Assembly: GCA_031272615.1 (NCBI GenBank)
Contig: JAISTL010000266.1
Span: 1 to 21,057 of the forward strand
DNA: 21,057 nt
Direction of reading: 5' to 3'
Source of the DNA: Methylobacteriaceae bacterium
GTDB taxonomy: Bacteria > Pseudomonadota > Alphaproteobacteria > Rhizobiales > Beijerinckiaceae
Every line of letters begins with the position of its first letter. Position 1 is the stretch's first letter. The notes below the pieces were generated by a model. The model worked only from the letters and a program-made list of their open reading frames with translations. It ran no database searches and had not been told where the DNA came from. The position numbers were made by a program, and so were the translations under genes. Below are positions 8,529-18,812 of the stretch, one piece after another.

Positions 8529-11522
8529 CTAGAACCGCATGACAAATCCGATACGGCCGGTGACGGCCTGAGAACCGTGGTGGTGCAGCGACCGAGTGGC
8601 TTCCACCTCGCCGAAAATGCGATATTTTCCGCTCTTCCACGTGTGACTGACGCCGAGACCCAATCCGCCCCGGTTCCGTTCCCGGGTGCTCTCGATGGAC
8701 ACGCCGGAAACCCTGACCTTCTTCTCGTCGCGGAACTCGTGATAGAGGTTGGCAATGCCGTAGAGCCGCGTTTCGGACATTTCCCCGGCATCGCTGGTCG
8801 ATGTCCATGTATACGCCGCCTCGATCCCCAGCCGGCCGCGTAAAGAGGCCGTGTCGTCGAGCTCATAGGTGTTGCCGAACCGGTCCTTGAAGCTCCGGAA
8901 GTTGATGGTGCCGTAGGTGAGCTGTGCCTGCGGCGTCAACGTGAAGTTCGGCGTGATGTTGAACTCGTGCCCCACCTCGATGGATGCCGCCCAGCCGAAG
9001 GCTTTGGCATGATAGGCGAGGGAACCCAGCGCGTCGGCCTGGAGGTCGCTCTCAAACCACATGGCTTTGCCCTGCAGGTCCACATAGGTGCCGTCGTCGT
9101 TGTACCACGTCAGTGTGGCGCCCAAGCCGTAGCGGCGCATGTCGAGATCGCCGCTGCCGTATACCGATTTGGTCCTGGTGGTGGAACCGCCGTAGAAGAC
9201 ATTCACACCGCCCATCAGGTGAGAGCCGTTCCTCTCCCACAGCATGCCGTCAAAACCCGAGCGGATTTCCCAGTCATTGGCCGAGGAGGAAACCCCGGTG
9301 GTCGAATGACTCGGCCTGAGACTGGTGTGCGAACCGCGGATGTCGGCCCACATGTACATGGGCGTTCCGTCGCTTTTCACCGGCAGCATGATTGGAACGC
9401 CGGAAAGGCCGGGGACTCCGGCGAAATCGGGGGACTGGGTGGAACTGATGCTGCCTGTGGTTGCGGGAAAGCCGCCGAACGGCCGCGAGGAGGAGAGCAC
9501 GTCATAATGGCCGCCCATGCGATGACGGAAGCTTTCCATGTCGACCACCACCCGGGCCATGTTGGATGCATAGGCCTCGGCCACCGGCACAAACGGCTGA
9601 TAGAGGATCGGTTCGCCGCCACCGCCACCGCCACCACCCGGAGGCGTCGGCAGTGTTGCGCAGCCGTAAACCGGGCAATCCTCAGACCTGAGATACCAGT
9701 TGCCGTTGGCGGCGGAAAGGCCATCCTTCTGCAGGGTGTAGGCGTAGGCGCCGGCAACCACCGCCTGGTTGCCGCCCGGCGTCACATAATCCCCGGCGAG
9801 GGAAAACGCCCCGCCTGAGTTTCCGTCCACCTGAACGACCATGATGCCGTCGCCGGTAGTCAGCGCCCCGGGTCCGCCGGCATTGGTCACATGCAGCGTC
9901 GTGGTGCCCGAGGTATTGCCCCGGACGTGGAGCAGATCGGAGGAAGACGTGTCGTCATTCAGCTCGGCGTGAAGGTAAACGTGTCCGTTGACGCCGATGA
10001 AATCGTTCTCGACCGTAAGCGTGGTGAACATCCCGCCCGACGGGGCAATGAACCTCACCGCGGAGTTGTTGAGGGTGAGGTTGGTGAGATTGCCGGACGC
10101 GTCGGTCCATTCCGAGCCGTTGTTCATGGTCAGATTGAAGATGGAGTTGGAAGCGGGTGTGGAGGAGAGACCGTTGAATCTGGAATGGTCGGCCGTCACG
10201 TTCATATGTGTTGACGCGCCGCCCATGTTCGAGAGAATGAAGGCTACGCCCCTGCCGTTGTTCATGGTGGAGTCGGTGAGGAAAACGTCCAGGTCCCCCA
10301 CCAGCAATTCGATACCGGTTCCGGAACTGTTGAAGGTTGAACCGGTGGCCTCGACCTTCATGGTGTAGGCGGCCCCGGTGGGTTCATTGGCGCGAATCGC
10401 ATAAGCGTTGGTCCCGCCGGTGACAGTCATCGTCGTATTGGTCAATGAGACATACGGTTGCAAGGTGTTGGAGCCATTCAAAACAAGGAACATGCCCATT
10501 GCCGTTGTTACCGCCGTGACATTCCATGTGGAGCCGCCGGAGAGCGTGACACGCGCGTCTCCTTCGACAAACATGCCTTGGGCGGACATGGTAGTGCCGG
10601 TCACATCGAATTCAGCCGGGCCGGAAAAGACGGCGGTTCCGCCGGTGGACACGGAAAGACCGCGCGCACCGGTTTCACCGGTGACCCGAAGGTTCGAGGT
10701 GCCCGTGACGGTAAGAGTGCCGCCGGTTTCATAACCGTATGCCTGCCCGGCGGGGGCGCTGACGGTTCCACCGACGTTGTTGAGTGTGACGGCCGAGGTG
10801 GCGCCCTGGACAGTTACGCCGTGCACCCTGTTTCCGGAGAGATTGAGTTGGACGGTTCCGTTGGCGGTGATGGTGGCGTTGTTACCGGTGGCGAGCATGC
10901 CCCATTCGTCGTTGGTCACCGAGCCGGAAACCGGCTGGATGGTGATGGTGGCGTCATCCAGCGTGATGTGGTTGTTCGTGCCTTCGGCACCGACAGCGTA
11001 AAAGTTCGAGAGCCCTTGGGAAGTATACATGGTGACATTGGTCGCACCGGTGAAGATGATATTTGAATTGGCGTAATACGCCGAAATGCCCCGCCCCCAG
11101 TCCGACGTCAGCGTTATACTGACATTATTGCCGGTAATCGTTCCGCCGTAGCGGGCCTTGATTCCGTTCTTTTCCCGGTTGGCGATGCCTTGGGTGCCGA
11201 CGAGAACAGCGCCGCTGCCGAGATCGATGATTCCGCCGCTTTCAGCGATGACAACGCCGTCGGTATCGAAAAGAGCGGTGGAGGTGGCGTGAAGATTGTC
11301 GCCGATGGTCAGAATGCCAGTGCCCTGGGCATGAACGATGGTGCCGGTGCCTGAAATCGTCGTGTCGGCGGGCAGTGTGCAGGGTCCGGAGTTGCAAATC
11401 GCCTGAGCGTCGGCAGGGGTGGCGCTGAATGCACTCAGCGCCACCGAAGCGAGAAGCGCGGCGAAAAGTCGTCTCCCGGTCGAAAAACGGGAATCCCGGC
11501 AGCAAGTGAGAAATGAGTCCAT
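8529..11522 (-). CDS. Autotransporter (type Va secretion) with beta-helix passenger
   Basis: A 997-residue outer-membrane autotransporter. The N-terminus has a signal peptide (basic stretch to about 18, hydrophobic LFAALLASVALSAF, likely cut after ADAQA near 41). Residues about 42-625 are a Thr/Ser/Asn/Gly-rich repeat-like passenger of the type that folds as a right-handed beta-helix. A poly-glycine hinge lies at about 628-637. The C-terminal part (about 715-997) is a beta-barrel with alternating aromatic strands, ending GRIGFVMRF with the terminal Phe recognised by the barrel-assembly machinery. The first ATG at 11522 gives a complete signal peptide, though its ribosome-binding site (GGA, 8 nt) is modest. 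It is monocistronic with its own terminator. It is probably an adhesin; no catalytic triad was recognised in the passenger, so an enzymatic passenger is not supported. Confidence 0.92.
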   Translation of the reverse strand: MDSFLTCCRDSRFSTGRRLFAALLASVALSAFSATPADAQAICNSGPCTLPADTTISGTGTIVHAQGTGILTIGDNLHATSTALFDTDGVVIAESGGIIDLGSGAVLVGTQGIANREKNGIKARYGGTITGNNVSITLTSDWGRGISAYYANSNIIFTGATNVTMYTSQGLSNFYAVGAEGTNNHITLDDATITIQPVSGSVTNDEWGMLATGNNATITANGTVQLNLSGNRVHGVTVQGATSAVTLNNVGGTVSAPAGQAYGYETGGTLTVTGTSNLRVTGETGARGLSVSTGGTAVFSGPAEFDVTGTTMSAQGMFVEGDARVTLSGGSTWNVTAVTTAMGMFLVLNGSNTLQPYVSLTNTTMTVTGGTNAYAIRANEPTGAAYTMKVEATGSTFNSSGTGIELLVGDLDVFLTDSTMNNGRGVAFILSNMGGASTHMNVTADHSRFNGLSSTPASNSIFNLTMNNGSEWTDASGNLTNLTLNNSAVRFIAPSGGMFTTLTVENDFIGVNGHVYLHAELNDDTSSSDLLHVRGNTSGTTTLHVTNAGGPGALTTGDGIMVVQVDGNSGGAFSLAGDYVTPGGNQAVVAGAYAYTLQKDGLSAANGNWYLRSEDCPVYGCATLPTPPGGGGGGGGEPILYQPFVPVAEAYASNMARVVVDMESFRHRMGGHYDVLSSSRPFGGFPATTGSISSTQSPDFAGVPGLSGVPIMLPVKSDGTPMYMWADIRGSHTSLRPSHSTTGVSSSANDWEIRSGFDGMLWERNGSHLMGGVNVFYGGSTTRTKSVYGSGDLDMRRYGLGATLTWYNDDGTYVDLQGKAMWFESDLQADALGSLAYHAKAFGWAASIEVGHEFNITPNFTLTPQAQLTYGTINFRSFKDRFGNTYELDDTASLRGRLGIEAAYTWTSTSDAGEMSETRLYGIANLYHEFRDEKKVRVSGVSIESTRERNRGGLGLGVSHTWKSGKYRIFGEVEATRSLHHHGSQAVTGRIGFVMRF

Positions 11523-11826: not shown

Positions 11827-11985
11827 TCACATCCGCATTGTCCGTTGTTTCAGTATCTGAACCGCGAGGTCGTGCCATTCGCGGATATCGCTCAGTTTTT
11901 CCGCCCTCAGCTCGGTCAGGCTGAAGTGGAAGGCGTAGGCGATGTCGGCGGCGAGTCCGCGCCAGTTTCCCCAAGTTCCGAGAAT
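11827..11985 (-). CDS. Tail chaperone extension E' (P2 GpE-like), reached by -1 frameshift
   Basis: This 52-codon frame has no ATG or GTG of its own and overlaps the end of gene E in the -1 frame. From the slip point it reads ILGTWGNWRGLAADIAYAFH and continues through FSLTELRAEKL and SDIREWHDLAVQIL to a TGA at 11829-11827. The pattern DIAxxFHxSxxEL followed by LxxxxxWHxxA is that of the P2 GpE family. In P2-like phages this frame is made only as an E+E' fusion through a programmed -1 frameshift, and the fusion chaperones the tape-measure protein. With the slip at 11985, the fusion would be 132 residues (80 from E, 52 from E'). Confidence 0.65.
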   Translation of the reverse strand: MLGTWGNWRGLAADIAYAFHFSLTELRAEKLSDIREWHDLAVQILKQRTMRM

Positions 11986-12224
11986 AAAGGGTCGAGCACC
12001 GCCCGAATTTTCTTGATGTCGGAGGCCGGGATACGTCGGATGACATCCATCGACAACCCGGTATGATTGGCGAGCAGCGCCATCATGGCCGCGATTTCGT
12101 TGTTTTCCTTCTGCATCACCTTGGATGACGCCTCGATATCGCCCAGCGTCGGCTCATCGATGTCAAGCTCCGTGATGAGCCTGTCGCCATCCTTAATAGG
12201 TTTTTTCAGTATGATTTTTGCCAT
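11916..12224 (-). CDS. Phage tail assembly chaperone E (P2 gpE / Mu gp41 type)
   Basis: A 102-residue protein beginning MAKIILKKPIKDGDRLITEL, followed by DEPTLGDIEAS. That is a short beta-rich start then a helical segment (ANHTGLSMDVIRRIPASDI), as in the phage tail assembly chaperone family E/41/14. The low-complexity tail ADSPPTSPTPSTSA looks like out-of-frame reading past the frameshift site, which agrees with the -1 frame being the conserved one there. The ATG at 12224 has GGAG six nucleotides upstream; the longer open frame adds an unsupported N-terminus. It lies 53 bp after a truncated gpU-like gene. No other tail genes are present, so this is an orphan prophage fragment. Confidence 0.7.
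   Translation of the reverse strand: MAKIILKKPIKDGDRLITELDIDEPTLGDIEASSKVMQKENNEIAAMMALLANHTGLSMDVIRRIPASDIKKIRAVLDPLFSELGETGADSPPTSPTPSTSA
11985..11991 (-). other. Putative -1 frameshift slippery heptamer CCCTTTA
   Basis: On the minus strand the bases are C CCT TTA in the reading frame of gene E (codons CCT 11990-11988 and TTA 11987-11985), exactly the X XXY YYZ pattern. Both tRNAs can re-pair on CCC TTT. The shift leads directly into the open E' frame. A weak stem (GGCG/CGCC) lies about 22 nt further on. Confidence 0.6.
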
Positions 12225-12277
12225 CGGTTTCTCCGGTAAAAAACCCGGCGCCCGGCCGGTGCGGTTGCGGTCACATG

Positions 12278-12685
12278 TCACCCGAACAGCGACAGGATCA
12301 TCCTCAGCGCCTCGGTGACGGCGTCAACTCCGGGGGTCGGAACTTCGGTGAGTGTCACGGTGTGTTCGACAACGTAGCCGACGCCGGTGGGCGACAGGTA
12401 TTTGTGCGCCTTGGACACCGAGGCCACCGCGTACCAGCCCAGAACGGCTCCGTCGCCGCGGGCCAGGCGGAAGCGTTCGCCGTCACGGGCCATGTCGCTC
12501 AGGGTCTGCAGCGAATCCAGCCCGCCGCGGTGAAACGGCAGCACCTGCCCGGTGATCCCGCAGACCTTTCCCGGATATGTCTGAACTATTCTATAAAACG
12601 GAATTTCGGTATGGGTTATGGTTCGTTGCGAAATGACGGAGATTTCACGAAACTCCGTTGGATAATCGGAATTTGCGCCCCGGAG
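12278..12685 (-). pseudogene. 5'-truncated phage tail protein, P2 gpU-like
   Basis: The frame stays open from an in-frame TAA at 12688-12686 to the TGA at 12278. It has no ATG; the only GTG is at 12544, deep inside the homologous part. The recognisable portion runs from about 12580: YPGKVCGITGQVLPF, then GGLDSLQTLSDMARDGE, GAVLGWYAVASVSKAHKY and GYVVEHTVTLTEVP. That layout (G/P-rich strand, GGLDxL helix, GxxLGxWxIxSV, then a final beta-strand) fits the C-terminal two thirds of gpU-type tail terminators. The first 30-35 codons are AT-rich, contain a hairpin and do not look like coding sequence. I infer that the gene lost its 5' end at a junction near 12590. The family call is from pattern, not search. 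Confidence 0.5.
12636..12658. repeat. Hairpin in the AT-rich junction (possible dispersed repeat)
   Basis: ACGGAG (12636-12641) pairs with CTCCGT (12653-12658), and TTT (12643-12645) with AAA (12650-12652) inside, leaving one bulged A and a 4-nt loop. It sits upstream of the recognisable gpU-like part and argues that this stretch is intergenic DNA. Confidence 0.3.
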
Positions 12686-12782
12686 TTACCAGCCAAAATA
12701 TATAAAATCTCGCGTGAATCCCGACATAACTTATTGATATTTAAAGTATTAAAAAAATTTGTACGTTTTATCAAAATTTCGT

Positions 12783-12810
12783 TTGACAAATCCGTATAAT
12801 TCGATAAATT
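12783..12810 (+). promoter_or_regulatory. Candidate promoter for the metQ operon
   Basis: A perfect -35 TTGACA at 12783-12788 is followed after 16 bp by TAAATT at 12805-12810 (four of six). Transcription from here would give a leader of about 380 nt before metQ, including all three hairpins described below. Confidence 0.5.
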
Positions 12811-12910
12811 AGCATTCGTTCGATATTTAGAACACAACGGAGCGTGCCATGATAATGCTTTTGTCCATGCGATGTTGTGCCGGCTGAACCTTCAAGCAAA
12901 CGCGATGGTC

Positions 12911-12942
12911 CCGGCGCTGACACCCGTCAAGTCCGGGCATGA
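12911..12942. repeat. Possible remnant of an alphaproteobacterial intergenic repeat
   Basis: The minus strand reads ATCATGCCCGGACTTGACGG and continues GTGTCAGCGCCGG. This resembles half of the CATGCCCGGACTTGA-type palindromic repeat that is common between genes in many alphaproteobacteria. Only one copy is in the window, so this is a weak call. Confidence 0.25.
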
Positions 12943-12985
12943 TTTTCTCACATAACCGGTATTGTCCACCCCTCTTGAATGTGCG

Positions 12986-13173
12986 GGAAACGGGAGCGCT
13001 CATCCCGGTTTCCGACACAGCCGAGCTTTGCTGTTTCCTGCGGGAAACAACACAGCCCTTTCCCTCTGAACTCGTGCTGCAACGGCGAATTTCACGGGCA
13101 CTGCCGCGGCGGCGCGGGTTCAGGGGGAAACAGGACACCGGCGCGCTCGCTTATCCGGACACTTCCCCCTGAA
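12986..13173 (+). promoter_or_regulatory. Three-hairpin leader of the metQ operon, unclassified
   Basis: H1: GGAAAC+GGGA (12986-12995) pairs with TCCC+GTTTCC (13003-13013), one bulged G. H2: TGTTTCC (13032-13038) pairs with GGAAACA (13043-13049), 4-nt loop. H3: an 11-pair perfect stem TTCAGGGGGAA (13119-13129) with TTCCCCCTGAA (13163-13173), 33-nt loop, ending 25 nt before the metQ ATG. TGCGGGAAAC occurs twice, at 12982-12991 and 13039-13048. I could not match it to SAM-I, SAM-II or cobalamin riboswitch signatures by eye. A methionine- or SAM-linked control element is plausible but unproven. Confidence 0.4.
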
Positions 13174-13198
13174 ATTCCCCTCATTTTGGAGATACTCC

Positions 13199-14017
13199 AT
13201 GACAAACCGTTTTACATCCCTGCTCATCGGGGTCGCTTTGGCTGCCTCCCTGATATCCAACGGCGCCGTCCAGGCCCAGATCCCCGATCCCGTCCGCGTC
13301 GGCGTGCGCGGCGGCGTCGACGAGCTGATTTGGGAGGTGATTGCCCAGGAAGCGAAGAAGGCCGACATCAATGTTGATGTGGTCGTCATCTCGGCCAGCG
13401 TCAGCCCCAATGAAGCCTTGAACAACGGCGATCTCGAGGCCAATTCCTTTCAGCACATTCCCTTTCTGAAGGATCAGATCAAGCAGCGCGGTTACAAGCT
13501 TGCCGTTGTCGGCAACACTTATATTTCCCCCATCGCCTTCTACACCAAAAAGAACTTCAAATCCCTCGGCGACCTGCCGGAGGGCGCCAAAGTCGGCATT
13601 CCCAATGATCCCTCGAATCAGACCCGCGCTCTGGTGGTGCTGCGGGACGCCGGGCTCATCACGCTCACCGACGAGTTTGACCCGTTCGAGGGTACGGCGT
13701 CTTTGAACGACGTGACCTCCAACCCGAAAAAACTGGAGCTCACCGAGGTGGCCAGCGCCGTGCTCGCCCGTTCCCTCGAGGATCTCGACGTGGCGGCCAT
13801 TGTCAACAGTTACGCCTATGAGGCCGGTCTCATCGCCACCCGGGACGGCATCGCCGTCGAAAAGAAGGACAACAACCCCTATGTCAACATTCTGGTTGTC
13901 CGCGAAGCCGACAAGGACGCTGCGTGGGCCAGGGACCTGTTGAAGGTTTATCAGTCCGAGCCGGTGTGGAAATTCATCGGCGAGAAATTCCAGGGTTCGG
14001 TGATTCCCGGATTCTGA
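13199..14017 (+). CDS. metQ: MetQ/NlpA-family ABC transporter substrate-binding protein
   Basis: A 272-residue periplasmic binding protein. The signal peptide (1-26, LLIGVALAASLI core, cut near VQA-Q) has no lipobox cysteine, so it is predicted soluble rather than a lipoprotein as in E. coli MetQ. The mature part shows the NlpA family pattern: RVGVRGGVDELIWEVI (33-48), NGDLEANSFQHIPFL (76-90), GAKVGIPNDPSNQTRAL (128-144) and an AIVNSYAYEAGL region. GGAG lies 7 nt before the ATG. It is the first gene of metQ-metN-metI, followed by a methyltransferase and a cupin. Methionine, its oxide or another sulfur amino acid is the likely ligand by family, but the accessory genes suggest a modified thioether or sulfonium compound is possible. 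Confidence 0.9.
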   Translation: MTNRFTSLLIGVALAASLISNGAVQAQIPDPVRVGVRGGVDELIWEVIAQEAKKADINVDVVVISASVSPNEALNNGDLEANSFQHIPFLKDQIKQRGYKLAVVGNTYISPIAFYTKKNFKSLGDLPEGAKVGIPNDPSNQTRALVVLRDAGLITLTDEFDPFEGTASLNDVTSNPKKLELTEVASAVLARSLEDLDVAAIVNSYAYEAGLIATRDGIAVEKKDNNPYVNILVVREADKDAAWARDLLKVYQSEPVWKFIGEKFQGSVIPGF

Positions 14018-14037
14018 CGGTTCGTGCATGAGTTGGC

Positions 14038-14075
14038 CCGGGAGCGATGTGCGTGTCGCCGGCACCCGCTCCCGG
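14038..14075 (+). promoter_or_regulatory. Stable intercistronic hairpin between metQ and metN
   Basis: CCGGGAGCG (14038-14046) pairs perfectly with CGCTCCCGG (14067-14075); inside, GTGC and GCAC can also pair. There is no T-run. In many importer operons such a hairpin protects the binding-protein mRNA 3' end so that it is made in excess over the membrane parts; that role is inferred. Confidence 0.45.
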
Positions 14076-14119
14076 CGCCGCTTCCCCAATTTCCGCGGTG
14101 TGAAACGTGAGGCATGACG

Positions 14120-15271
14120 ATGGGTCTGCAATCCGTGTTCAGAAAGAGCAATGTCGTGCTGCTGTCCGAGGTCGGCGCCCGGTTCCGCAAACCTCTTCAC
14201 CGTGCCGCGGTCGATACGGACCCGTCGCCGGTGCATATCCGTTTTGAACACCTGCATAAACGCTACTCCGGAATCGGCGATACCGTCGCCCTGAAGGATA
14301 TCTCCTTCGATGTCCACCGCAGCGATATCTTCGGCATCATCGGCCGCAGCGGCGCCGGAAAATCGACCCTGCTGCGGTCCGTCAACATGCTGGAAAAACC
14401 GACCTCCGGCAGGGTTTCCATTGACGGCATCGATATCGGCACGTTGAGTGAAGAGGTGCTGGTTGCCCGCCGCCGCCGCATCGGCATGATTTTCCAGCAT
14501 TTCAACCTTCTGTCCGCCAAAACCGTCCGCGACAATATCGGCCTGCCGCTGAAAGTTGCCGGCGCCGACAGCAACGCTGTCCGCCGGCGGGTGGATGAAC
14601 TGCTGGAGATGGTCCATCTCACCGAAAAGGCTGACGTCTATCCGGCGAATCTCTCGGGCGGGCAGAAACAGCGGGTCGGCATCGCCCGCGCTTTGGTGCA
14701 CAACCCGGAAATCCTGTTGTGCGACGAGGCGACCTCGGCTCTCGATCCGGAAACCACGCTGTCGATTCTCGAACTGTTGCGGGAAATCAACGAGAAACTC
14801 AAAATCACCATTGTGCTCATCACCCACGACATGTCGGTGATCCGCGCCGTCTGCCACAAGGTGGTTGTGCTGGACCAGGGAGAAATCGTCGAACAGGGAG
14901 ATGTCTGGACGGTGTTCGGCAACCCCGTCGCCGAAGCGACGCGCGCGCTTCTCAGCCCCTTGAAGCGCGATTTGCCCGATGATCTGAAATGCAAACTGAC
15001 GGATGACATCACTCCGGATTACCCGGCGCGAGCACTCCTCAGTCTGACGTTTTCCGGGGAAGACCAAAGCGACGGTCTGTCGCTGGCAAATCTTCTTTCC
15101 GTCGCCCCTGACATGCGGCTTCTCCACGGCGGCCTTGACCGCATCCAAGGGCACTCCCAGGGAACGCTGCTGGTTTCGGCGCCGGCGGAAACACTGGATA
15201 CCCCGGCCCTGCAATCCCTATGCTCCGCCAATCGTGTGAAGGTACTCGGTTATGTCCCTGACGATGTTTGA
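14120..15271 (+). CDS. metN: MetN-family ABC transporter ATPase
   Basis: The ATP-hydrolysing subunit of a methionine-type importer. From the start at 14120 it is 383 residues: Walker A GRSGAGKS (75-82), Q-loop IFQHFNLL, signature LSGGQKQR, Walker B ILLCDEATSALD and the switch histidine ITHD. The C-terminal part (about 300-380) is the NIL/ACT-like domain that in E. coli MetN binds methionine and inhibits transport. I prefer the second ATG (14120) because GAGG lies 7 nt ahead, whereas it is only 1 nt from the first ATG (14114). About 38 residues precede the usual start of the ATPase fold, an extension of unknown role. It overlaps metI by 20 nt, so the two are probably translationally coupled. 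Confidence 0.93.
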   Translation: MGLQSVFRKSNVVLLSEVGARFRKPLHRAAVDTDPSPVHIRFEHLHKRYSGIGDTVALKDISFDVHRSDIFGIIGRSGAGKSTLLRSVNMLEKPTSGRVSIDGIDIGTLSEEVLVARRRRIGMIFQHFNLLSAKTVRDNIGLPLKVAGADSNAVRRRVDELLEMVHLTEKADVYPANLSGGQKQRVGIARALVHNPEILLCDEATSALDPETTLSILELLREINEKLKITIVLITHDMSVIRAVCHKVVVLDQGEIVEQGDVWTVFGNPVAEATRALLSPLKRDLPDDLKCKLTDDITPDYPARALLSLTFSGEDQSDGLSLANLLSVAPDMRLLHGGLDRIQGHSQGTLLVSAPAETLDTPALQSLCSANRVKVLGYVPDDV

Positions 15272-15905
15272 CCGTTATGTGCGCGCTCTCAACGAAACCC
15301 TTTTGATGGTGGGCGTCTCCAGCGTCATTGCCATCACCTGCGGCCTGCTGCTGGCGGTGACTCTCGTCGTCACCGCGCCCGGCGGACTCTACCCGAAACC
15401 CACTTTCAACAAGGGTCTCTCAATTATCGTCAACATGTTCCGCTCGGTGCCGTTCATCATCCTGCTGGTGGCGCTCATCCCCTTCACCCGTTTTGTCGTC
15501 GGAACAACGCTTGGAACCTGGGCGGCCATCGTGCCGTTGTCCATCAATCTCATTCCGTTTTACGCGCGCATCGTTCAGGTCAGCCTGCTGGAAGTCGACA
15601 AGGGCCTCATCGAGGCGGCCCACGCCATGGGGCTGAAGCGCCGCCACATCATCTGGCACGTGCTGTTGGCGGAATCCCTTCCGGCGATTATCGGCGGCAT
15701 GACGGTATGCGTCGTGGTGATGATCGGGTCTTCCGCCATGGCCGGGGCGGTAGGCGCCGGCGGTCTCGGCGACCTGGCCATCCGCTACGGCTATGAACGC
15801 TATGAAACCAAAGTACTATTTGACATCATCATCATTCTCATCGTCATGGTCACCATCGTCCAGTTTACCGGCGAAAAACTGGCGCGATTGGTCGATCATC
15901 GCTGA
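15252..15905 (+). CDS. metI: MetI-family ABC transporter permease
   Basis: A 217-residue inner-membrane permease with about five hydrophobic helices (roughly 16-40, 56-78, 86-108, 148-172, 187-206). The cytoplasmic coupling (EAA) loop EAAHAMGLKRRHIIWHVLLA is at 121-140. GAGGLGDLAIRYGYERY (169-185) is characteristic of MetI. The ATG at 15252 lies inside the 3' end of metN (20-nt overlap), with GAAGG 9 nt upstream. It forms the transmembrane pore of the importer with MetN and MetQ. The next gene, a methyltransferase, follows after 69 bp on the same strand. Confidence 0.93.
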   Translation: MSLTMFDRYVRALNETLLMVGVSSVIAITCGLLLAVTLVVTAPGGLYPKPTFNKGLSIIVNMFRSVPFIILLVALIPFTRFVVGTTLGTWAAIVPLSINLIPFYARIVQVSLLEVDKGLIEAAHAMGLKRRHIIWHVLLAESLPAIIGGMTVCVVVMIGSSAMAGAVGAGGLGDLAIRYGYERYETKVLFDIIIILIVMVTIVQFTGEKLARLVDHR

Positions 15906-15974
15906 TGCCCCGGACATTCGAGGCGACTCCACTGCCGCCGATTTGCTCAACACGAGAAAACACAGGAAAATACC

Positions 15975-16970
15975 ATGACATCACCTGACAGCGGCACGGA
16001 TATCCCGCCCGGAACACTGCTGAATATCGACGCCTCCCGCTATCTGGGAGTGGCTCCCATCCGGCGGGTTGCGCCTGACTGGCGTATCGTCGTCACTGAA
16101 CGCACCTTTCCGCCGCGCCCGGACAATCCGCAGGCCGACTGGCTTCCCACCATCGTTGTGCCGGCGTTGAAACTCATCGTGGAAGATCGCGGACCGGCGC
16201 GCGCCTTCGCTTCCATCGGCACCGGAACGGGGGTGGATATTCTGGCGGGCATAGAGCTGCTCGGCGCCGAAGTGGTCGGGGCCACCGACGTCTTCCCCGA
16301 TATCACCGATGCCGCCGAATGGAACATCCGGCAGAATCTGCTGCCGGAACACCCGGTGGAGGTGCATGTCGGGCACGGCGACCTGCTGGAACCCCTCGCC
16401 GGTAAGGGATTGAAATTCGATATCATCTACGAGAACCTGCCCAATATCCCGTTGCCCGAAACCGCCGGCTCTCTGGAAATCAGGCGCAATTCCTCGAATT
16501 TCGTGCCGCCCCGCCCGGAGGAGGTGCCGCAGTTTGCCCGTGACTGGTTTCTTGCCCTGCATTACATCGCCCTGCTTCAGGCCCGGGAATTCCTCACGGA
16601 CGACGGGTTCGTCATTTCGACCCTCGGCGCGCGTATCCCTTTGGAGTATCTTGAACGCCTGTCCCGTGCCGCCGGGCTTGCACCGAGCTTTCTTTATTAT
16701 TCCTGGAAAGCCCAAGCCGGAGGTGAAGAGGTTCTTCCTTCCTACACCGGTTTTGAAGCCGCGGGTCTCGGGCCGTTTTACTATTACCCCGTTGACGCGC
16801 TGGAAAAAGCTTTTAATGGTGTGACGGCGCGGGAATCGGGAGTACGGGCTCTCGACATCGAAAAGGAACTGCTGCCCCATCGTCTCACCGCAACCCAGGC
16901 GTGGGAGGCATACCGTAACGGCCATCGTATCGGTCATACGGTGGCAGTGTTGAAATCGGCACGGGAGTAA
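15975..16970 (+). CDS. Class I SAM-dependent methyltransferase, possibly S-methyltransferase-like
   Basis: A 331-residue Rossmann-fold methyltransferase. Motif I is FASIGTGTGVDILAGIELLG (78-97), followed by VVGATDVFPD (100-109). The post-fold active-site loop is FDIIYENLPNIPLP (148-161), an N/D-P-P-Y-like variant. From memory, the C-terminal pattern (LPSYTGFEAAG near 254-264, and AWEAYRNGHRIGHTVAVL at 309-326) recalls the methyltransferase part of plant methionine S-methyltransferase, which has AWxYxxxGxxIxH near its end. This suggests, but does not prove, methylation of a sulfur amino acid. AGGA lies 7 nt before the ATG. It sits 3 nt ahead of a DMSP-lyase-like cupin, and after a Met-type importer. 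An N- or O-methyltransferase cannot be excluded. Confidence 0.8.
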   Translation: MTSPDSGTDIPPGTLLNIDASRYLGVAPIRRVAPDWRIVVTERTFPPRPDNPQADWLPTIVVPALKLIVEDRGPARAFASIGTGTGVDILAGIELLGAEVVGATDVFPDITDAAEWNIRQNLLPEHPVEVHVGHGDLLEPLAGKGLKFDIIYENLPNIPLPETAGSLEIRRNSSNFVPPRPEEVPQFARDWFLALHYIALLQAREFLTDDGFVISTLGARIPLEYLERLSRAAGLAPSFLYYSWKAQAGGEEVLPSYTGFEAAGLGPFYYYPVDALEKAFNGVTARESGVRALDIEKELLPHRLTATQAWEAYRNGHRIGHTVAVLKSARE

Positions 16971-16973
16971 CCC

Positions 16974-17600
16974 ATGGACGCCCTGACGGCGGAGAGCTTG
17001 ACCAACCTTGTGGATGCTGTGACCGGCCGGTATGCGGCCAAAGGCGGCGAATCCGAGCGCATCCGGCGGGAAATTGCCCTGGTGCTGGGCCATGTCCGCG
17101 AAGCGCGGCAACGACCGCCCTCGGTGCGCCGGTTTGAGCGCCACGGTGTGACGGACTACGTCGACCAGGCCGTTGCCGCCGCCCGCAAAACCGCGCCGGA
17201 GCTGGCGGCGACGCTGGAGCCCGTCGCCGCTGAACTCTATTGGCGCTACGGCTATTCACCGCGCCCGGACGCGCCGGGCCTGGAAAATGCCATGGCGTGG
17301 ACGGAACTTGTCGGGCCCGGGCACTACTGGCATTCCGATGATGTCTGTCTCGGCCTGACGTTGATTGCGCCGCACAACCTCTACCCCGACCATTATCATC
17401 CGGCGGTGGAGCTTTATACGGTGGTGGCGGGGGAATCCGACTGGACTCTGGAAGGCGTGACCACGCGGCGGTTTCCCGGTGACCGCATCCTGCATGAAAA
17501 AAACGCCGTCCACGCCATGCGCAGTTTCGATGAACCGCTGCTCGCCATCTACTCATGGACCGGCGACGTGCTCTCGCCGTCCAGGTATGCGGGTTTGTGA
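16974..17600 (+). CDS. Cupin of the DMSP lyase-like (DddQ/DddL) superfamily
   Basis: A 208-residue protein with a helical N-terminal half (about 1-90) and a cupin barrel (about 105-205). The metal-binding pattern is YPDHYHPAVELYTVVAGESD (137-156), giving H140, H142 and E146, with Y148 next to it and the distal histidine H180 in NAVHAM. This HxHxxxExY...H layout and the AGxxxW and LLAIYSWTGD strands are those of dimethylsulfoniopropionate lyases of the DddQ type, which bind iron or zinc and remove dimethyl sulfide by beta-elimination. GGAG lies 6 nt before the ATG; the gap to the methyltransferase is 3 nt, so they are very likely coexpressed. The true substrate could be another sulfonium or an unrelated small acid. 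Confidence 0.75.
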   Translation: MDALTAESLTNLVDAVTGRYAAKGGESERIRREIALVLGHVREARQRPPSVRRFERHGVTDYVDQAVAAARKTAPELAATLEPVAAELYWRYGYSPRPDAPGLENAMAWTELVGPGHYWHSDDVCLGLTLIAPHNLYPDHYHPAVELYTVVAGESDWTLEGVTTRRFPGDRILHEKNAVHAMRSFDEPLLAIYSWTGDVLSPSRYAGL

Positions 17601-17722
17601 ACACTGCAGCGATGATGGCACTGGGCTTGGAACACCTGGACGAAGAGTTTCAAATGACGATTCACCACATCTGAAGCCACCTCCGGTGAGCGCCCGACGT
17701 TTCCCTTTCCCGTATTTTTCAC

Positions 17723-17751
17723 TTGCAAAATATGGGCACGCCCCCCATAGC
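17723..17751 (+). promoter_or_regulatory. Possible obgE promoter
   Basis: TTGCAA (17723-17728) and CATAGC (17746-17751) are separated by 17 bp, just upstream of obgE. Four and three of six matches respectively. The 177-bp gap between the cupin gene and obgE otherwise shows nothing recognisable. Confidence 0.3.
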
Positions 17752-17777
17752 ATGGGCCGCAAAACAAGGGATAGTCC

Positions 17778-18812
17778 ATGAAATTTCTTGATCAGGCCAA
17801 GGTCTATATCCGTTCCGGCGATGGCGGCGCCGGATGCCTGTCGTTCCGCCGGGAAAAGTTCATCGAGTTCGGCGGTCCTGACGGCGGTAACGGCGGCAAT
17901 GGCGGCGATGTGCGGGTGGAGTGTGTCTCGAACCTCAACACCCTGATTGATTATCGTTACCAGCAGCATTTCAAGGCGGCGACCGGCGGCCACGGCATGG
18001 GCAAGAACCGCTCCGGGGCCAAGGGCGCCGACGTGGTGCTCAAAGTGCCCGAAGGCACACAGATTTTCGACGAAGACGGGGAAACCCTGCTGGCCGATCT
18101 CACCGAACCGGGTCAGCAGGTGGTGTTGGCCAAAGGCGGTAACGGCGGTTTCGGCAACGCCCACTTCACCACATCCACCAACCGCGCGCCGCGCCGGGCC
18201 AATCCGGGCCTGCCGGGAGAGGAGCGCTGGATTTGGCTGCGTCTGAAACTGATTGCCGATGTCGGCCTGGTCGGCCTGCCCAATGCCGGGAAATCGACCT
18301 TTCTGTCCGTTGTGTCGTCGGCGCGGCCGAAAATCGCCGATTACCCGTTTACCACCCTGCATCCCGGCCTGGGCGTCGCGTCGGTCTACGGCAGCGATGT
18401 TATCATCGCCGACATTCCCGGGCTGATTGAAGGGGCGCACGAAGGCGCCGGCCTGGGCGACCGGTTTCTCGGACATGTGGAACGGTGCCGGGTGTTGCTG
18501 CACCTGGTGGACGGAACCTGCGAACACGCCGGAAAGAATTATCAAACCGTACGCGGGGAACTGGAAGCCTATGGTCACGGCCTGTCGGAAAAACCGGAAA
18601 TCGTCGCCTTGACCAAAGCCGACGCCCTGGATGCCGAAACCGCGAAAAAACAATTGGAACGGCTGCGGCGGGCTGCTAAAATCAAGCCGTTTCTTCTGTC
18701 GTCGGTTTCCGGTGAACACGTGGACGATGTACTGCGGGCGCTCCACCATGAAATGCAGGCCGTCGCGGAGCAAAGCCGCGAAAACCAACCCGCCGGAGAA
18801 TGGCGGCCGTAA
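17778..18812 (+). CDS. obgE: Obg family GTPase
   Basis: A 344-residue ribosome-associated GTPase needed for 50S maturation and growth control. The glycine-rich Obg domain (1-158) has [15 protein letters not shown] and [14 protein letters not shown]. The G domain has G1 GLPNAGKST (166-174), switch I region YPFTTLHP (189-196), G3 DIPG (212-215), G4 TKAD (279-282) and G5 SSVSG (308-312). The ATG at 17778 has GGGA 6 nt upstream. It heads the obgE-proB-proA series, which is common in alphaproteobacteria. The usual rplU-rpmA upstream neighbours are not here; the importer-methyltransferase-cupin operon takes that position. Confidence 0.97.

Follow-up and report, generated by a model that had tools for sequence, protein, structure and literature searches.

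A conserved methyltransferase and DMSP-lyase-type cupin gene pair in sulfur-amino-acid neighbourhoods: a candidate two-step carbon-sulfur cleavage module

The stretch analysed here, called the window, comprises the 21,057 nucleotides (nt) at positions 1 to 21,057 of contig JAISTL010000266.1 from a Methylobacteriaceae bacterium (assembly GCA_031272615.1), whose genome is 78% complete. It carries genes for a MetQNI-type ATP-binding cassette (ABC) importer, a class I S-adenosylmethionine (SAM) methyltransferase, and a cupin of the dimethylsulfoniopropionate (DMSP) lyase type. A sequence-only reading of the window had described five same-strand genes with a 20-nt overlap between metN and metI and with gaps of 69 nt ahead of the methyltransferase gene and 3 nt ahead of the cupin gene, and the positions of the open reading frames (ORFs), all on the + strand, bear out each of these points. 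Model confidence is given below as the predicted local distance difference test (pLDDT).

13199-14017, + strand, metQ-like periplasmic binding protein of 272 amino acids (Pfam Lipoprotein_9, 9e-75)
14114-15271, + strand, metN-like ABC ATPase with an N-terminal extension and a weak C-terminal NIL domain (ABC_tran, 3.5e-36)
15252-15905, + strand, metI-like permease, with a 20-nt overlap with metN (BPD_transp_1, 1.8e-18)
15975-16970, + strand, class I SAM methyltransferase of an unnamed family (without a Pfam match above cut-off; model pLDDT 91.2)
16974-17600, + strand, DMSP-lyase-type cupin (DMSP_lyase PF16867, 5.3e-27; model pLDDT 96.6)

The cupin passes the gathering score of PF16867 (95 bits vs 27), and the HxHxxxExY...H pattern of DMSP lyases noticed earlier is confirmed as H140, H142, E146, Y148, and H180. 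Comparison with DddQ, for which PMC4437653 describes Tyr120, His123, His125, Glu129, Tyr131, and His163 as essential, revealed equivalents of all six residues (Y137, H140, H142, E146, Y148, and H180). The first solved structures matched by the cupin sequence are the DMSP lyases 5cu1 (3.7e-16) and 4b29 (5.5e-10), and a profile of 36 cupin relatives, chosen of 77 (alignment A2), strengthens these matches to 4e-27 and 1.1e-26. The six best folds for the cupin model are chains of DddQ-type DMSP lyases (4b29, 5cu1, and 4la2; TM-scores of 0.71-0.77), followed by DddK. All six DddQ catalytic residues are kept in 62/62 methyltransferase-linked cupins (the window and 61 of the loci described below). 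Since the DddQ residue set and fold are kept, the cupin is expected to catalyse beta-elimination of a sulfur leaving group from a carboxylate. Although fold, Pfam family, and catalytic residues are those of the DddQ/W-type lyases, the cupin is only 22-23% identical to the two best solved structures, and Trp157, present in 61/62 methyltransferase-linked cupins, is replaced by Phe in three aligned DMSP lyases. The cupin further differs from these lyases in adjoining a methyltransferase, and many genomes with the pair come, by record title, from guts, soils, fens, and phototrophs.

Three further DMSP-lyase-type cupins are encoded beside ABC importers in the window's genome, and relatives of the methyltransferase are absent from the stretches read around them. 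Contig C284 (L089:3354-8020) carries two tandem cupins directly before an SsuABC/NMT1-type importer, while contig C146 (L090:4904-11524) carries one beside an Opp/Dpp-type importer and a short-chain dehydrogenase. The six-residue set is kept in two of these three, the second C284 cupin having Phe for the catalytic Tyr148, which brings the overall count to 64/65.

Analysis of the methyltransferase sequence, aligned with 26 relatives chosen of 120 listed (from 203 among 8000 scored candidates; alignment A1), identified GxGxG at residues 82-86, an acidic D105, and 'ENLPN' at 153-157. The protein scores below the Pfam cut-offs (PrmA, 16 bits vs 22) and has no match at 1e-5 in plasmid records. The solved folds nearest to its model are those of MmtN (7vvv, 7vvw, and 7vvx), and GxGxG and the conserved Asp are likewise shared with MmtN and the plant MMT methionine S-methyltransferases. 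In MmtN, SAM and Met are bound by Asp69, Ser101, Leu102, and Cys121 and by Glu127, Arg132, and Glu250 (PMC9135737); in a low-scoring alignment Asp69 is kept as D105, while Arg132 and Glu250 fall outside the aligned region. Members of MmtN Group I share >50% mutual identity and have DMSP-synthesis neighbours (PMC9135737). The window's methyltransferase shows neither property, identity being 19-21% and no DMSP-synthesis genes being recognised among the recurrent neighbours of the pair (MetY, importers, CysK, and other sulfur genes), and we consider it too distant to be named MmtN.

The importer is related to MetQNI at the Pfam superfamily level. The metQ product has a signal-like N-terminal segment without a lipobox cysteine (zero Cys in residues 1-30), and its matches in the PDB include the E. 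coli-type MetQ 4yah (3.7e-56); the NIL domain of the metN product scores 16 bits vs a Pfam cut-off of 24. All three parts fall below the curated NCBIfam cut-offs for methionine systems (metQ product, TIGR00363, 222.3 bits vs 228.85; metN product, ABC_MetN, 332.4 vs 499.7; metI product, PRK10782 MetI, 203.4 vs 212). An amino-acid-like cargo is likely, because the closest solved relatives of the metQ product are MetQ-type lipoproteins; methionine is no more than a candidate for it.

To place the pair in a wider context, we scanned one genome per species and examined the best 80 loci of 113 confirmed methyltransferase relatives, from 151 pattern matches. These loci favour closer relatives and are phylogenetically non-independent (17 Fibrobacter and 10 Streptomyces), and all counts come from codon-scored gene calls only, with approximate gene starts. 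In 60/80 loci the methyltransferase gene is immediately followed, on the same strand, by the cupin gene; the position is otherwise taken by a CysK-like gene (9/80), another gene (10/80), or the contig end (1/80). The two genes are separated by -8 to 440 nt, with 42 nt or less in 58/60 and an overlap in about a third, as far as the approximate starts allow. Judged by record titles, the loci with a cupin come from six phyla, and they make up 27/33 when one locus per genus is counted. Cupins account for 61/442 genes near the methyltransferase (within three positions) vs 0/260 genes far from it (six or more positions away, same loci); the methyltransferase-cupin order is more than chance. The sequence-only reading would have given up its proposal had the pair been confined to this genome, and the pair is instead found across phyla and within sulfur-amino-acid islands.

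No cupin was called in 19/80 loci. Among 14 of these 19 genomes that were searched, five betaproteobacterial ones carry the cupin elsewhere, and nine (six Streptomyces, Methylosinus, Pokkaliibacter, and Rhodoplanes) have none at 1e-10. The methyltransferase thus divides into a branch tied to the cupin and a second branch found mostly with a CysK-like enzyme and an EamA-type exporter (labels from Pfam on one Streptomyces member each, the rest by eye). In a quick tree search with SH-aLRT (Shimodaira-Hasegawa-like approximate likelihood ratio test) support only, the window's methyltransferase groups with six betaproteobacterial loci (SH-aLRT 100), four of which have MetQ or MetI genes upstream. 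A third alignment (A3) took in 48 of 50 rows, two short or edge-cut genes being dropped. The fewest changes on this tree are five for the cupin, six for MetQ/MetI, and 12 for MetY. Searches of 59 near genomes returned only three short matches to the methyltransferase (E 1.4e-5 to 7.2e-4), and in an overlapping phylum sample of 398 genomes it was detected at 1e-30 in the window's genome only, the 397 others having no match. This near absence, together with the betaproteobacterial grouping, suggests that the methyltransferase was acquired by horizontal transfer.

In the cupin-less Streptomyces loci (L070, L073, L078, L079, and L085-L088), the methyltransferase lies in a cassette with a CysK/CBS-like enzyme (uncalled in L079), an EamA-type exporter, a conserved gene without an NCBIfam match, and a SAM synthetase (unseen in L086); L073, L079, and L087 add methylenetetrahydrofolate reductase and adenosylhomocysteinase. 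This cassette resembles a biosynthetic unit equipped to recycle its own SAM.

Comparison of near and far genes revealed a marked concentration of sulfur metabolism around the methyltransferase. Sixteen sulfur-set families together account for 135/442 near vs 29/260 far genes, with MetY-type genes at 52/442 vs 8/260, CysK at 13/442 vs 2/260, MetK at 9/442 vs 0/260, SsuA-type at 9/442 vs 1/260, MetQ at 12/442 vs 1/260, and URO-D at 9/442 vs 1/260; ThiF/MoeB (3/442 vs 5/260) and CysE (5/442 vs 3/260) show no such enrichment. A MetY-type gene lies within six genes of the pair in 50/80 loci, and most of these genes encode O-acetylhomoserine sulfhydrylases (41/48 at 1e-100). MetQ/MetI genes were found within five genes in 12/80 loci only, which does not support MetNIQ as a fixed member of the system; the MetY type is far commoner. 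PMC4958253 and PMC6302742 describe MetY as making methionine with methanethiol as co-substrate, and in Rhodospirillum rubrum MetQ/MetN-type proteins increase in parallel with MetY when sulfur is supplied in organic form (PMC4958253, Table 1). The pair is a dispersed module whose surroundings bear a strong imprint of sulfur metabolism.

Two kinds of candidate demethylating systems accompany the pair in some hosts. An MtaA/CmuA-type URO-D methyltransferase gene lies within seven genes in 6/80 loci (Verrucomicrobia, Acidobacteria, and Anaeromyxobacter), with a corrinoid protein in five of the six and a RACo-type activator in four; one representative of each of the three was scored, and all are under the NCBIfam cut-offs. 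Such a corrinoid methyltransferase module could turn dimethyl sulfide into methanethiol. Nitrogenase-like genes occur within eight genes of the pair in 5/80 loci, with D and K subunit genes in three of them, Magnetospirillum L017 and L058 and Rhodopseudomonas L020. H- and B-like genes accompany these in L017 and also occur in Rhodopseudomonas L019 and Rhodomicrobium L063. The L058 D protein and the L020 K protein match 9fmg/9d9u at 1.4e-274 and 6.4e-197; PMC12552129 presents 9FMG as a methylthio-alkane reductase that converts dimethyl sulfide and related thioethers to methanethiol. Since the L017 H-like protein scores above the nifH cut-off, the L019 and L063 genes can be called only nitrogenase-like, of either the Mar or the nitrogenase type. 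DUF1847 (PF08901; one member tested) also recurs in the sulfur islands (L015, L017, L018, L024, L036, L040, L049, L058, L061, L063, and L084) and was not found in the window's genome.

These observations lead us to propose that the methyltransferase and the cupin act together as a conserved module that scavenges organosulfur compounds by cleaving a carbon-sulfur bond in two steps, a proposal whose chances we consider even. A small thioether would be imported, here via the MetQNI-type importer and elsewhere perhaps via an SsuABC-type one, as gene order would suggest. The methyltransferase, to judge from its fold and context, would move a methyl group from SAM onto the thioether sulfur and thereby create a dimethylsulfonium-type leaving group. 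The cupin, with a metal on its His/Glu set and a tyrosine as base, would then take the alpha proton and beta-eliminate a methyl sulfide (dimethyl sulfide in the simplest case), with an acrylate- or aminoacrylate-type compound as the other product, as its DddQ-identical residues would allow. We favour dimethyl sulfide as the product mainly because two unrelated demethylating systems surround one pair. Where the genes lie nearby, methylthio-alkane reductase or the corrinoid methyltransferase may cut the sulfide to methanethiol, which MetY may join with O-acetylhomoserine to give methionine; the reductase and MetY reactions themselves are treated as established in PMC12552129 and PMC4958253. From import to MetY, the observed gene order and residue conservation and the predicted reactions form a coherent path. 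As substrate we most expect a beta-thioether carboxylate or amino acid. Our best guess, held with little confidence, is S-methylcysteine; it or a methylthio acid is favoured over methionine because elimination of this kind would call for a beta-carbon sulfur. The broader reading, an undescribed sulfur scavenging that runs from thioether through sulfonium to methyl sulfide by a DMSP-lyase-type cupin, with interchangeable downstream modules returning the sulfur to methionine, we hold to fall slightly short of an even chance.

Several points weigh against this scheme, in which the activity of every member is predicted from sequence, fold, and context. A pyridoxal phosphate-dependent beta-lyase could release methanethiol from S-methylcysteine in one step, so a two-step route needs justification. 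Identity between the methyltransferase and MmtN is only 19-22% (Foldseek TM-scores 0.52-0.56), MmtN ranks seventh by the methyltransferase's sequence profile (E 0.017), and in the low-scoring alignment the SAM-binding Cys121 and the Glu127 of MmtN correspond to Asn154 and Leu160. A branch of 13 methyltransferase loci (Streptomyces, Methylosinus, Rhodoplanes, and Pokkaliibacter) lacks the cupin, and neither the Mar-type nitrogenase-like clusters (four together, 2/442 near vs 3/260 far) nor the corrinoid protein (1/442 vs 2/260) is enriched near the pair. No riboswitch, SAM riboswitches included, reached the Rfam gathering threshold in 26 sources (the window and 25/80 loci), which gave one tRNA only. 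In the window's genome PF00148 (nitrogenase-like MarDK) had no match, leaving the genome without the mark of methylthio-alkane reductase salvage, and the MtaA/CmuA match was sub-threshold only; since the demethylating genes sought were not found, dimethyl sulfide would have no visible use there, which at 78% completeness is weak evidence. The interpretation offered by the sequence-only reading is thus partly supported: its methylate-then-eliminate path agrees with the MmtN-type nearest fold and the DddQ catalytic set, its substrate and activities are predictions, and in the window's host the onward routes sought for dimethyl sulfide were not found.

This negative result keeps alive a direct release of methanethiol, in which the methyltransferase would methylate a thiol (cysteine or a 3-mercapto acid) and the cupin would eliminate methanethiol for MetY to convert to methionine. 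Needing no demethylation of dimethyl sulfide, this scheme fits the window's host, where two MetY-type genes score above cut-off, and the Fibrobacter loci, whose displayed neighbourhoods hold no demethylating genes; CysE and CysK genes also recur near the pair. We nevertheless find it rather unlikely, as DMSP lyases cleave a sulfonium, next to which a thioether is a poor leaving group, and the methyltransferase's nearest fold is that of a thioether methyltransferase. The ABC importers beside the window genome's other cupins (an SsuABC/NMT1-type set for two, an Opp/Dpp-type one for the third), with no relative of the methyltransferase in the stretches read, likewise leave room for a cupin that cleaves an imported sulfonium, DMSP or a relative, the methyltransferase being otherwise employed, for example in recycling a product. 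The methyltransferase gene directly precedes the cupin gene in 60/80 loci and overlaps it in about a third of these, which suggests consecutive steps and makes this arrangement unlikely.

The nearest fold, the MetQNI-type genes of the window, and the MetQ/MetI genes of 12/80 loci would also suit an MmtN-like enzyme that converts imported methionine to S-methylmethionine, which the cupin would cleave to dimethyl sulfide. Such a route is highly improbable: the leaving group would sit at the gamma carbon, where the neighbouring proton is presumably not acidified, MetN, MetQ, and MetI all score below the methionine-system cut-offs, and turning methionine into a methionine precursor brings no gain. 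Methionine, a substrate considered by the sequence-only reading, is accordingly poor on chemical grounds, its sulfur being placed at the gamma carbon vs the beta leaving group of DMSP lyases, and we rate it as less likely. Chemistry outside sulfur metabolism, with the methyltransferase acting on N or O, the cupin on an unrelated metabolite, and the sulfur neighbours merely co-regulated, is very unlikely given the enrichment of sulfur-metabolism families (135/442 near vs 29/260 far) and the DMSP-lyase residues kept in 62/62 methyltransferase-linked cupins.

Among known systems, the sulfur salvage of R. rubrum has partner families (MetY, MetQ/MetN, and marBHDK) that also surround the pair in Magnetospirillum and Rhodopseudomonas loci; the proposed module differs in that the portions of PMC4958253 and PMC12552129 consulted make no mention of the methyltransferase-cupin pair and that the window's genome has no nitrogenase-like gene. 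The R. rubrum 1-methylthioxylulose 5-phosphate (MTXu-5P) sulfurylase is likewise a cupin that frees a methylated sulfur, methanethiol, for MetY (PMC4958253), although it has another substrate and no methyltransferase partner is named in the parts consulted; the likeness drawn here is one of function. MddM1/2, given in PMC12904073 as actinomycete H2S/methanethiol methyltransferases, were among the enzymes considered. A literature search judged by titles, abstract starts, and passages gave no recognised description of the pair. Methylthio-alkane reductase itself was reportedly first described in a 2020 paper.

The DMSP-lyase-like cupin family includes enzymes of unassigned function, according to the title of Lei et al. 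2018, and the conserved methyltransferase partner and sulfur-amino-acid setting offer a concrete role for some of them. If the proposal is true, part of these cupins would gain a function, and a non-marine, anaerobic source of dimethyl sulfide would be added. Volatile methyl sulfides would then be made from thioethers, or handled, by Fibrobacter, termite-gut bacteria, wetland Verrucomicrobia and Acidobacteria, and purple phototrophs along a route for which we found no description, and in some hosts the route would supply methane-releasing enzymes.

Around the five genes, promoter- and terminator-like sites in 12500-17800 occur about as often as in shuffled sequence, so the operon ends are undefined. 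Upstream of the metQ gene, two small ORFs at 11916-12544 (- strand) are phage-tail-like by eye, and 8529-11522 (- strand) encodes a 997-residue protein that is autotransporter-like by eye. A 977-residue ORF on contig C342 of the window's genome (L101:1424-4357) resembles this autotransporter-like protein and adjoins a MetY-type gene.

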